Source: Halorarum halophilum
GTDB lineage: Archaea; Halobacteriota; Halobacteria; Halobacteriales; Haloferacaceae
DNA: 64,000 bases
NCBI RefSeq assembly: GCF_013401515.1
Contig: NZ_CP058529.1
Location: 3,534,001 to 3,598,000 of the forward strand
Direction of reading: 5' to 3'
The translations under genes and the position numbers were made by a program. Of this stretch, positions 48,997-52,370 are shown one piece after another. The stretch's first letter is position 1, and every line of letters starts with the position of its first letter. A model generated the notes under the pieces. The model had not been told where the DNA came from, did not search any database, and saw only the letters and a list, made by a program, of their open reading frames with translations.

Positions 48997-49683
48997 TCAG
49001 CCCGCGAACCGACCGAGCGTCCCCGCCGCGTCGAGGAGGAAGGCCACGCCGAACCCGGCGAGCACCAGGGCCGAGAGCCCGGCGACGACCGGCGCGAGCG
49101 TCTCGACCCGTCGGCGCGCGGCCACCAGTGCGGCGGGAAAGCCGGTGACCCAGAGCCCGATCCCGCCGAAGAAGCCGACGACGAGCGCCGGGCTCCCGGT
49201 CTCCACGACGACCGACCCGGCGAGCGACGCGACGCCGGCCTCGGCGAACACGTCCACGGCTCCCGGTTCGAGCAGCCCGACGCCGACGGTGAGCCAGAAC
49301 AGGACCTGGTAGGGGTTCGTCAGGGCGAGCACGAACGCCTTCCGGAACCCCGCCGACTCCTCGGGCGCCGAGTCGGCGGCGACGAAGGAGGTCCGGAGCG
49401 ACCGCGCCGCGCCCACGGCGTAGTAGCACATCAACACGCCGCCGACGCCCACCATGACGCCGCGGAGCAGCGGATATCGCTCGACGACGCCTACGACGCC
49501 GAGGAGCGCGAGGAGGAAGAAGACGAGGTCCGCCGACGCCGCGCCGAGGCCCGCCTTCGCGCCGGCGGTCCACCCGCGGACGACGCTCTCCTCGGCGATG
49601 ACGGCGTTCATCGGCCCCGGCGGCGCTGCCAGCGCCAGGCCGAAGAGGATCCCGGCGAGCAGGGAGAGGAGGGTCGCCGACAC
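48997..49683 (-). CDS. LysE family translocator
   Basis: 228 residues with six hydrophobic helices. The family signature near the N-terminus is FGLALAAPPGPMNAVIAEESV (PGP), followed by GWTAGAKAGLGAASADLVFF. LTNPYQVLFWLTVG in helix 4 is also characteristic. It probably exports amino acids or similar small molecules. Substrate not readable. Located just downstream of, and co-directional with, the Gdt1-like and DtxR genes, 45 bases away. Confidence 0.9.
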   Translation of the reverse strand: MSATLLSLLAGILFGLALAAPPGPMNAVIAEESVVRGWTAGAKAGLGAASADLVFFLLALLGVVGVVERYPLLRGVMVGVGGVLMCYYAVGAARSLRTSFVAADSAPEESAGFRKAFVLALTNPYQVLFWLTVGVGLLEPGAVDVFAEAGVASLAGSVVVETGSPALVVGFFGGIGLWVTGFPAALVAARRRVETLAPVVAGLSALVLAGFGVAFLLDAAGTLGRFAG

Positions 49684-49728
49684 GTCCCGGCGAAGGAGAA
49701 CACCCGACTTAAACGGCGCGACACGCGC

Positions 49729-50436
49729 TCAGAACAGGCCGAGGACGACCTGCGATGCGGCGCCGACCAGACTCTCCCAGACGGAGAAGCCGACGACCAT
49801 CGACAGAACCGTGTCGAGCCCGAAGAACGCGAACAGCGCGGCCCCAGCGAGGTGGGCTTTGCGAACGTCGAACCGCCGCGACGAGCGGTGGAACAGGTAG
49901 GCGTTCGCGAGGCTCACCGGGATGATGACGAGCATCTCGCCGACCCAGATGGCCGACGTGGCGCCGTACTGCGCGGCGAGTCCGATGGTGACGAGCTGCG
50001 TCTTGTCGCCGAACTCGCCCGCGGCCATCATCGCGAAGATCGAGAGGAAGCTCCCGAACCGCCCGGAGAACTCCTTTCCGAGCAGCGTCACCTCGCCGTC
50101 GATGGCGCCGAGCAGCGAGGTCCCGCCGTCCGTCTCGGCGGGGCGCCCGTCCGTACCCGGTGACGGGGTCGAGTGGAGTAGCAGGACCGCGAACAGGAGG
50201 AACATCCCGGCGGTGAACGCGTCGAGGAGGAACTGCGAGAGGACTCCCTGGATCGCCGCGCCGAAGGTGATCTCGACGGCCGTCCAGCCCGCGAACGCGG
50301 TTCCGGCGGCGGCGACGACGATGGCCGGCCGGTATCTGGTGGACAGTCCGGCGATAATGAACTGCACCTTCTCACCGGGGAGGACGGCCAACTGGGCGAC
50401 CGCCGCGACGACCACGAGTTCGAGGTAGCCGGTCAC
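49729..50436 (-). CDS. TMEM165/GDT1 (UPF0016) family cation transporter
   Basis: 235 residues, two repeats of three helices. The second repeat has the intact motif AAGEFGDKTQLVTIGLAAQYG. The first has a degenerate version, LPGEKVQFIIAGLSTRY, in place of ELGDKTQ. Family members export manganese or exchange Ca/Mn for protons. Its GTG start overlaps the stop of the DtxR regulator (50433-50436), which points to metal-controlled manganese efflux. The degenerate first motif may alter ion selectivity. Confidence 0.88.
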   Translation of the reverse strand: MTGYLELVVVAAVAQLAVLPGEKVQFIIAGLSTRYRPAIVVAAAGTAFAGWTAVEITFGAAIQGVLSQFLLDAFTAGMFLLFAVLLLHSTPSPGTDGRPAETDGGTSLLGAIDGEVTLLGKEFSGRFGSFLSIFAMMAAGEFGDKTQLVTIGLAAQYGATSAIWVGEMLVIIPVSLANAYLFHRSSRRFDVRKAHLAGAALFAFFGLDTVLSMVVGFSVWESLVGAASQVVLGLF

Positions 50437-51125
50437 GCGTCGCTGGGTTTCAGGGAGGCCTCGTCGCCGGACTCGGACCGAACGCGCACGGACGCGGCGA
50501 CCGAGTCGGGAAGGCTCTGCTCCTCGCCGGCGACCCGGACGGTAACCATCCCGAACGGCGCAACGTCGACGATGGTCGCGGCGGTTCCGGGCGTGATACC
50601 CGCGCGTTCGAGGTACTCGAGCTCCTCGTCGTCGCGGTCGCTCACGCGGGCGATGACGATGTCGTCACCCACCTCGAAGTCGGTGAGTGGTCGGGTGTCC
50701 GAGTCGGACGGGGGTTCGAGATCCGCGCCCGGAATGGGGTCGCCGTGGGGGTCGATCGTCGGGTTTCCGAGCACCTCGGCAACGCGCCGCTCGAACTCCT
50801 CGCTGATGTGGTGTTCGAGGATGTCGGCCTCCTCGTGCACCTCGCTCCACGAGTAGTCGAGCTGCTCGGCGAGGTACGCCTCGAGCAGTCGGTGGTGCCG
50901 GATGACCTCCAGCGCGACGGTCCGCCCCTCCGGCGTCAGCTCCGCGCCCTTGTACTTCTCGCGCTCGACGAGGCCACGTTCCGTGAGCGTGTCGAGCATG
51001 CTCGTCACGGTCGGGGGCGTCTTGTCCAGCCGTTCCGCGATAGCGGAGGTTGAGACGGGGGGACCGTCCTCGGTCTGGAGGACGTAGATCGCCTTCAGGT
51101 AGTCCTCCATCACGTCGCTCAGCAT
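50433..51125 (-). CDS. DtxR/MntR family metal-dependent regulator
   Basis: 230 residues. N-terminal winged helix (MEDYLKAIYVLQTEDGPPVS, SAIAERLDKTPPTVTSMLDTL). The dimerisation/metal domain follows, with RHHRLLEAYLAEQL and EVHEEADILEHHISEEFERR. An acidic linker leads to a C-terminal SH3-like FeoA domain (DIVIARVSDRDDEELEYLER onward). It binds Mn(II) or Fe(II) and represses by dimer binding to a palindrome. One lies 8-23 bases upstream of its own start. It overlaps the exporter gene, so it probably controls it. Confidence 0.92.
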   Translation of the reverse strand: MLSDVMEDYLKAIYVLQTEDGPPVSTSAIAERLDKTPPTVTSMLDTLTERGLVEREKYKGAELTPEGRTVALEVIRHHRLLEAYLAEQLDYSWSEVHEEADILEHHISEEFERRVAEVLGNPTIDPHGDPIPGADLEPPSDSDTRPLTDFEVGDDIVIARVSDRDDEELEYLERAGITPGTAATIVDVAPFGMVTVRVAGEEQSLPDSVAASVRVRSESGDEASLKPSDA

Positions 51126-51173: not shown

Positions 51174-52370
51174 TCAGATCCCCTGTCCCATGAGGTGGCT
51201 CCGGAGCACGTCCGGCGTCTTCGCGCCGGCGTCGGGGTTGACGACGACGACCTCGTCGTCCTCGTCCAGTTCGCTGTCCTCGGCCAGCGCCCACGCGCCC
51301 GCGAGCGCGACGCCGCCCGGGCCGCCGACTTCGAGCACCTCGGACTGGCAGACGGTCACGGCGCTCTCCAGGGCGTCGCCGTCCGGGACGGTGAGCGCGT
51401 CCCCGTCCACCTCCGCGAGCGCGTCGAGCGCTCGGTCACCGCCAGCCGGGTCCTCGATCTCCAGTTCGCCGACGATGGTGTCCGGACCCTCCCACGGTTC
51501 AACCGCGTCGGCATCCGCCCGCCACGCCGCGGCGATCGGCGCACACCCCTCCGGCTGGACGGCGTACACCGAGGGGAGTGCGTCCGCGGCCCCGACCGTC
51601 CGGAGTTCCCCGAACCCCTTCACGAGCCCCACGAGCAGTTCGCCGGTGCCGACCGGAACGACGACCGCGTCGGGAACACCGACGTCCGCGAACAGTTCGA
51701 ACGCGACGGTCTTCGCGCCCTCGTGCCGGTACGGCGTGGTGAACTCCTGGAGCGAGTAGTACTCCGTCTGGAGCTGGTCGTCGACCGCCGCCGCGGCGTC
51801 GCCGTAGCGGCCGCCAACCACGCGCATGTCGCCGCCGTGGACGTTGACCATCGCCTTGTTCGAGAACGCCGTCCGCGACGGGACGAACGCGTACGAACGG
51901 AGGTCCGCCCGACCGGCGTACGCGGCGGCCGACTGGCCGGCGTTGCCGGCGGCCGCGAGCGCGAGCGGTTCGACCCCCCGGTCTGCGGCGGCGGTCACGG
52001 CGAGGCTCGTTCCGCGGTCGATGAACGTTCCGGTGGGATTGCGTCCCTCGTCCTTCACGTAAGCGGCAGCGACGCCGAGTTCGCCGGCGAGTCGGTCGGT
52101 CCGGACGAGCGGCGTGTCGCCCTCGCTCGCCGACAGTCCCGCCGAGGCGGGAAACGGGAGCAGCGCGTCGAAGCGCCAGTGGCCCGGCCGATCGTCCGCG
52201 CGGCCGACCCCTCCGCCGTCGCCAGTGAACTCCCTGGCGTCGACCGTGTCGTAGTCGTACGCCGGGTCGAGCGATCCCCCGCACTCCGGACACCGGCCGT
52301 GTTCGTCGGCGTCGAACGACGCGCCACAGCCCGTACAGCCGAGCCCGCGGAACGCATCCGTCGTTTCCAT
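51174..52370 (-). CDS. Threonine synthase-like fold-type II protein lacking the PLP lysine
   Basis: 398 residues. An N-terminal zinc-ribbon-like motif (LGCTGCGASF, GRCPECGGSL) is typical of archaeal ThrC. The PLP fold follows with EGDTPLVRTDRL, AAAGNAGQSAAAYAG and VVVPVGTGELLVGL. The cofactor motif reads NPTGTFIDRG, where active enzymes have NPTGSFKDRG; the codon is ATC, not a one-step change from Lys. It should therefore not form the normal internal aldimine. It may be a pseudoenzyme, a regulator or an enzyme with new chemistry. Confidence 0.8.
   Translation of the reverse strand: METTDAFRGLGCTGCGASFDADEHGRCPECGGSLDPAYDYDTVDAREFTGDGGGVGRADDRPGHWRFDALLPFPASAGLSASEGDTPLVRTDRLAGELGVAAAYVKDEGRNPTGTFIDRGTSLAVTAAADRGVEPLALAAAGNAGQSAAAYAGRADLRSYAFVPSRTAFSNKAMVNVHGGDMRVVGGRYGDAAAAVDDQLQTEYYSLQEFTTPYRHEGAKTVAFELFADVGVPDAVVVPVGTGELLVGLVKGFGELRTVGAADALPSVYAVQPEGCAPIAAAWRADADAVEPWEGPDTIVGELEIEDPAGGDRALDALAEVDGDALTVPDGDALESAVTVCQSEVLEVGGPGGVALAGAWALAEDSELDEDDEVVVVNPDAGAKTPDVLRSHLMGQGI

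Follow-up and report, generated by a model that had tools for sequence, protein, structure and literature searches.

A Threonine Synthase-Like Protein of Haloarchaea without the Schiff-Base Lysine: Family-Wide Retention and a Putatively Remodeled Cofactor Site

Results

The Gene and Its Neighborhood

The window, a 64,000-nucleotide stretch of the Halorarum halophilum genome, contains on its minus strand a gene for a threonine synthase-like protein, whose features are collected in Table 1 together with two downstream genes. The open reading frame begins with ATG, and its product matches the Pfam PALP family. The best NCBIfam model, PRK08197 "threonine synthase," scores 250.9 bits, below the cut-off of 303, and the TIGR00260 thrC score of 131.1 bits is below its cut-off of 167.1. 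In an alignment with three threonine synthases of solved structure, residue 117 stands opposite the lysine of NPTGSFKDRG; in place of the Schiff-base lysine that follows NPTG(S/T)F, the window protein has isoleucine, confirming the absence of the PLP-binding lysine reported in a first-pass annotation. Its codon is two base changes away from AAA or AAG. Two other genomes of the genus read isoleucine and leucine at this position, and a motif without lysine occurs in 150 of 151 family genomes, ruling out both a sequencing error, already judged unlikely in that annotation, and a single-strain oddity.

Table 1. Coordinates within the window of the lysine-less gene, its notable residues, and two neighboring genes
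Feature	Position	Strand	Detail or basis
Lysine-less threonine synthase-like protein, 398 aa	51174..52370	-	Pfam PF00291, 7e-63; NCBIfam PRK08197, 250.9 bits
Zinc-ribbon-like four-cysteine N-terminal segment (C12, C15, C27, C30)	52281..52337	-	Sequence
NPTGTFIDRG motif, residues 111-120	52011..52040	-	Phe116 kept here, gone in most relatives
Codon ATC, Ile117, Schiff-base lysine position	52020..52022	-	
Former phosphate-binding loop VGTGEL, residues 240-245	51636..51653	-	Glu244 at 51639-51641
Glu302 in place of an invariant Gly	51465..51467	-	Loop presumably facing the PLP ring
Pro379-Asp380 in place of Thr-Gly	51231..51236	-	Presumed pyridine-nitrogen contact
Conserved C-terminal LRSHLMG	51186..51206	-	Row comparison
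DtxR/MntR-type metal-dependent repressor	50433..51125	-	48 bp downstream of the lysine-less gene, same strand
GDT1-type cation/proton antiporter	49729..50436	-	4-base overlap with the repressor gene

The repressor, the antiporter, and a LysE-type exporter (48997-51125, minus strand) form an apparent operon downstream of the lysine-less gene that is common to many relatives, and a divergent flavin amine-oxidase-like gene upstream is shared by several loci. Lysine-bearing orthologs occupy the same neighborhood in other haloarchaea. In Halostella (L104), Halorussus (L105), Haloarchaeobius (L118), and Halobacterium (L086), the next gene encodes an MntR-type repressor, as in Haloferax and the window, and downstream of some lysine-bearing orthologs the GDT1-type antiporter and LysE-type exporter are found as well; in Natrialbaceae, a zincin-like neighbor is common to lysine-bearing and lysine-less copies. 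Hence, the lysine was lost in situ, from a gene that still sits where the lysine-bearing ortholog sits. In 36 of 102 lysine-less and 4 of 44 lysine-bearing rows, a same-strand gene for an MntR-type repressor lies no more than 1.5 kb downstream, a comparison between loci of greatly differing length in which 30 of the 44 lysine-bearing loci are short. Given these lengths, and given that Halorubrum copies adjoin an iron/cobalamin-type transporter instead, the neighborhood offers only a hint of a link to metals, and since lysine-bearing orthologs can have the same metal-related neighbors, it does not explain the change.

Threonine Synthases Elsewhere in the Genome

Twelve PALP genes are present in the H. 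halophilum genome. Seven of them, counting the lysine-less gene itself, are matches to the protein at E ≤ 0.001, and the other six all carry the lysine. Two of these paralogs score above the TIGR00260 threshold, with 294.9 and 186.7 bits versus 167.1, so that a search for a second, complete thrC, suggested in the first-pass annotation, finds intact genes; two further ones exceed the PRK08197 cut-off. The lysine-bearing, PRK08197-type genes L007 and L008 of this genome fall within the clade of lysine-bearing copies from other haloarchaea, away from the lysine-less gene, and would be either old paralogs or transfers. Such a PRK08197-type paralog was found at E ≤ 1e-40 in 13 of 35 family relatives and not in the other 22, on which ground we rejected it as an obligate partner.

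At positions 209-210, the lysine-bearing ortholog has Thr-Phe, in contrast to the Asn-Ser of two canonical own-genome copies, which we take to be the substrate-phosphate contacts of Thermus threonine synthase. Because of this difference, even the lysine-bearing ortholog might be something other than a true threonine synthase. In Haloferax volcanii, glycine, serine, and threonine reportedly restored the growth of a transposon mutant in thrC3 (HVO_2969) (PMC4300041).

Distribution of the Lysine-Less State

Relatives were drawn from 60 related genomes and from a contig scan with one genome per species (best 80 of 181). The resulting alignment of 160 rows holds the window protein and 159 of 164 loci (L001, L003, L006, L119, and L121 gave no match), a tally that includes duplicates from the window's own genome. 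Removing 7 of these duplicates and 6 identical rows leaves 147 distinct rows: 86 in a lysine-less main clade, 36 lysine-bearing, and, set aside, 13 of a mixed Natrialbaceae type and 12 distant. At position 117, where the first-pass annotation had proposed aligning haloarchaeal homologs, 103 of the 147 rows have a residue other than lysine and 44 have lysine, with the contig-scan part again limited to the best 80 of 181.

Within the 60-genome set, 33 of the 35 other members of the window's family gave a copy readable at position 117, every one without lysine; the other two, both incomplete assemblies, gave a partial copy (G014) and no copy (G032). Among the 151 family genomes with a completeness of 90% or more, which include that of H. 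halophilum, 135 match a degenerate form of the motif whose codon excludes lysine, four of them with a second match, possibly by chance, and 15 of the remaining 16 have a His/Tyr version, for a total of 150, where matches were counted as patterns, not each read as protein. The last genome (G126) yielded no relative at the threshold of E ≤ 1e-80, and a reversed-pattern control gave 0 matches in both family scans. Of 145 genomes drawn evenly from the order, 52 match the pattern (matches not individually read), namely 23 of 25 in the window's family and 29 of 120 elsewhere, in families f4, f5, f6, f7, and f12. The feature is thus not peculiar to the gene in which it was first noticed; lysine loss is family-wide and recurrent.

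The residue that replaces lysine in the 86 main-clade rows is varied (Leu 73, Val 3, His 3, Tyr 3, Ile 2, Thr 1, Phe 1), as would be expected were position 117 no longer engaged in chemistry. Two copies, from Halospeciosus flavus (L098) and genome G056 (L038), have Ala117 and carry Glu or Ala in place of Asn143, unlike most other lysine-less copies; L098 is placed among lysine-bearing rows in the tree described below and possibly represents a separate loss. The copy in a record titled Halobellus captivus (L044) falls inside Halorubrum and has Halorubrum-type neighbors, suggesting gene transfer or a mislabeled record. In the N-terminal segment, cysteines 15, 27, and 30 are each present in 30 of the 86 lysine-less rows versus all 36 lysine-bearing rows, and the window protein has all four.

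Recurrent Loss and Purifying Selection

For tree building, 83 of the 147 rows were hand-picked without most long branches and the trait columns were removed; all trees were quick ones. The 83-row tree needs six state changes, at least four of them forced by well-supported branches, and the Natrialbaceae losses fall among lysine-bearing rows. A single lysine-less clade is rejected at a cost of 122 log-likelihood units (p-AU 0.000292), with the caveats that the lysine-less group is defined by the residue itself and that the position of the root is uncertain; under the chosen outgroup, the lysine-bearing rows branch off inside the lysine-less ones. We read these trees as indicating that the change at position 117 is recurrent, the lysine having been lost more than once, and claim no exact count.

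The lysine-less gene is under purifying selection. Nei-Gojobori dN/dS ranges from 0.07 to 0.26 in 20 lysine-less pairs versus 0.125 to 0.22 in 10 lysine-bearing pairs, all hand-chosen among close relatives. Family copies from the 60-genome set have no internal stops, and 114 columns are at least 95% conserved among the 86 lysine-less rows, new invariant residues included. These dN/dS values and the retention across the family led us to reject a relic gene. Loss of a catalytic residue is here combined with purifying selection, a combination expected of pseudoenzymes.

Changes in the Cofactor Site

Comparing the 86 lysine-less main-clade rows with the 36 lysine-bearing rows, we find that residues expected to contact PLP are replaced in correlation with the loss of the lysine and that new acidic residues are fixed. 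The contact roles of positions 116, 244, 302, and 379 were assigned from alignment together with general knowledge of the fold, not from coordinates. The PTGGGVG stretch of the lysine-bearing orthologs, which on the same basis we take to be the phosphate-binding loop, reads PVGTGEL in the window protein (TGGGV to TGTGE), where GTGEL thus stands for the glycine-rich GGGVG. Position 244 is Glu in 86 of 86 lysine-less and Val in 36 of 36 lysine rows, position 302 is Glu and Gly in the same proportions, and Thr or Ser replaces Gly at position 242 in all 86. Glu or Asp occupies position 380 in 84 of 86, compared with mostly Gly in lysine rows; Phe116 is universal in the lysine rows (36 of 36) and persists in 19 of 86 lysine-less ones; and Glu209 is found in 75 of 86. 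Both glutamate codons are used at position 244 (GAG 53, GAA 33) and at position 302 (GAA 57, GAG 29), indicating that the residue is held and not the codon. A similar association is seen in the 83-row set for Glu/Asp302 (41 of 44 non-Lys versus 2 of 39 Lys rows), non-Gly242 (43 of 44 versus 2 of 37), and non-Phe116 (38 of 44 versus 2 of 39), the 3-4 independent pairs on well-supported branches being too few for a sign test of the paired changes to reach significance.

The first-pass annotation had regarded the glycine-rich phosphate loop as preserved, and had argued from the conserved fold for selection on a role other than PLP catalysis. The statement about the loop was wrong, and the change in the loop argues that remodeling affected the cofactor site as a whole and went beyond a single residue; selection on the gene and conservation of the fold both stand. 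Part of the PLP site remains, as judged from Asn143 (83 of 86 lysine-less rows), Asp118-Arg119-Gly120 (86 of 86), and Thr/Ser379 (71 of 86). In fold-type II PLP enzymes, the pyridine nitrogen is contacted by Ser/Thr (or Cys) (PMC6411801); the corresponding residue of the window protein, mapped by alignment, is Pro379. A substitute lysine, which would have spoken against the annotation's reading, did not appear: no new conserved lysine is found in the lysine-less rows, since the lysine-bearing rows share those at 106, 172, 220, 251, and 384 (Lys172 in 35 of 36, the other four each in 36 of 36).

Two Natrinema copies, from N. salsiterrestre (L093) and N. gelatinilyticum (L114), combine Lys117 (NPTGTSKDRG and NSTGTSKDRG) with Ser116, a changed phosphate loop, and Glu302, all three of which recall their lysine-less sisters. 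The sisters have Thr at position 117 (ACG), one base from AAG, and Lys117 in the two copies may be a regain in an already remodeled protein or a remnant.

Overall Fold

The AlphaFold model of the window protein (pLDDT 90.6, pTM 0.91, from a 42-sequence alignment) retrieves threonine synthase 2c2b at Foldseek rank 1, and VIA-align superimposes the two with Z 45.6 and an rmsd of 2.6 over 393 residues (1v7c, Z 42.9). Together with the Pfam PALP match, these results place the protein in fold type II, and the view that the rest of the fold is kept holds. The helix after the phosphate loop begins in the model at residue 244, presumably where the PLP phosphate would sit in this fold. In L002, a threonine-dehydratase-like paralog from the same genome, the counterpart of position 302 in the alignment is the Gly of the ADG loop; we take this Gly to face the PLP ring in serine racemase, a contact on which the literature searches gave nothing. 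The model fits ligand-bound, closed threonine synthase structures best (2c2b, 6nmx, 1v7c). A control model of a lysine-bearing ortholog matches closed threonine synthase equally (2c2b, Z 46.2 versus 45.6), so that the models show no conformational difference and lend no support to a "locked closed" mechanism.

Discussion

What might a threonine synthase fold be doing without its lysine? We favor, as the probable answer, a conserved haloarchaeal pseudoenzyme that descends from a threonine synthase-like PLP enzyme and acts through binding, not PLP catalysis. The Schiff-base lysine was lost in place several times, and the phosphate loop, positions 302 and 380, and mostly Phe116 changed along with it. 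In the model that we envisage, the carboxylates of Glu244 and Glu302 would occupy the sites of the PLP phosphate and ring, or repel these groups, such that PLP would no longer be held. The pocket may be either sealed by internal salt bridges or able to bind another ligand, probably cationic or an amine, and the protein would work by binding, as a regulatory subunit or a ligand sensor in amino-acid or metal homeostasis. An apo pseudoenzyme with an acidic pocket that does not bind PLP, and with a regulatory or ligand-binding role, is our best reading of the sequences. More specifically, repeated in-place conversion may have produced a cofactor-free protein whose acidic pocket binds a cationic ligand (an amine or a metal ion) and which serves as a sensor or regulatory subunit; we put this forward tentatively, as a possibility with the odds against it. 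If true, the fold-type II scaffold would have acquired a new class of function.

Could the former cofactor pocket have become a catalytic site of another kind, acidic or metal-dependent and working without PLP? Acidic residues in or near the old active site (Glu209 in 75 of 86 rows, Glu244 and Glu302 in 86 each, Glu/Asp380 in 84) would suit such a new enzyme, as would the position of the gene ahead of a DtxR/MntR-type repressor and a GDT1-type antiporter in many genomes. However, lysine-bearing orthologs can share these metal-related neighbors, and no metal-site motif was recognized in the protein, so that we regard a new enzyme as unlikely.

Lysine-independent PLP chemistry has precedent in the fold-type I dehydratase ColD, which employs a histidine. 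The lysine-less protein might, by analogy, bind PLP non-covalently, for example to hold an external aldimine; it retains Asn143 and Asp118-Arg119-Gly120, with Thr/Ser379 in 71 of 86 rows, and entry 2tys is a structure of tryptophan synthase beta that carries a Lys-to-Thr mutation and has its active sites occupied by ligands. Yet seven different residues occur at position 117 (Leu in 73 of 86), with no fixed acid-base replacement, and PLP would fit poorly with a phosphate loop and a ring site that carry the invariant Glu244 and Glu302, respectively, making non-covalent binding quite improbable.

A redundant gene decaying under relaxed selection, with other threonine synthases in the cell and a functionless product, would be in keeping with 12 PALP genes, two of them over the thrC cut-off of TIGR00260, and with the disappearance of the zinc-ribbon cysteines from most relatives; it is strongly disfavored by a motif kept in 150 of 151 family genomes, by copies without internal stops in the 60-genome set, by dN/dS of 0.07-0.26, and by the 114 conserved columns. 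The least probable of the alternatives, to which we give almost no credence, is an ordinary PLP enzyme in which another lysine forms the aldimine: Lys106 and Lys172 are invariant in lysine-less rows, but the same lysines are conserved alongside Lys117 in the lysine-bearing orthologs and none arose upon its loss.

The pseudoenzyme reading that we prefer bears on annotation and on experiment. Threonine synthase models are the top NCBIfam matches of the protein although their cut-offs are failed, and annotation by best match would therefore add a false threonine synthase to haloarchaeal metabolic models. Loss of the lysine more than once in one gene, with near-universal retention of that gene in a large family, is an unusual natural experiment in the passage from enzyme to non-enzyme, and the lysine-bearing orthologs at the same locus offer clean before-and-after pairs for work in the genetically tractable Haloferax.

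How does the protein compare with known systems? With ThrC (TIGR00260, PF00291) it shares the fold, the NPTG-x-x-x-DRG framework, the Asn loop, and, in the window copy, the N-terminal Cys ribbon; unlike ThrC, it lacks the Schiff-base lysine, has a TGTGE loop, Glu302, and Pro-Asp for Thr-Gly, and scores below the TIGR00260 cut-off. The haloarchaeal threonine synthase-like proteins of PRK08197 (NF006050) are its orthologs at the same locus, and a lysine-bearing Halostella copy reaches 374 bits with this model, whereas the window protein (250.9) and the Haloferax copy with its Leu117 (294) both fall below the cut-off of 303 and have residues of the cofactor site replaced.

No paper recognized as dealing with the lysine-less threonine synthase-like group emerged from our literature searches. 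The nearest precedent is TSB-like, a eudicot pseudoenzyme of tryptophan synthase beta that activates the alpha subunit. There, the change is ascribed to E190A and D386E in a duplicated gene, and the protein is modeled with PLP (PMC12727527). Both descend from fold-type II PLP enzymes and are kept by selection, the haloarchaeal one, like TSB-like, probably as a non-catalytic protein; unlike TSB-like, the haloarchaeal protein has lost the lysine itself as well as putative PLP-binding sites, at the original locus and recurrently. Pseudoenzymes are a known phenomenon, and what the haloarchaeal family would add is recurrent lysine loss with a rebuilt pocket on a fold-type II scaffold.
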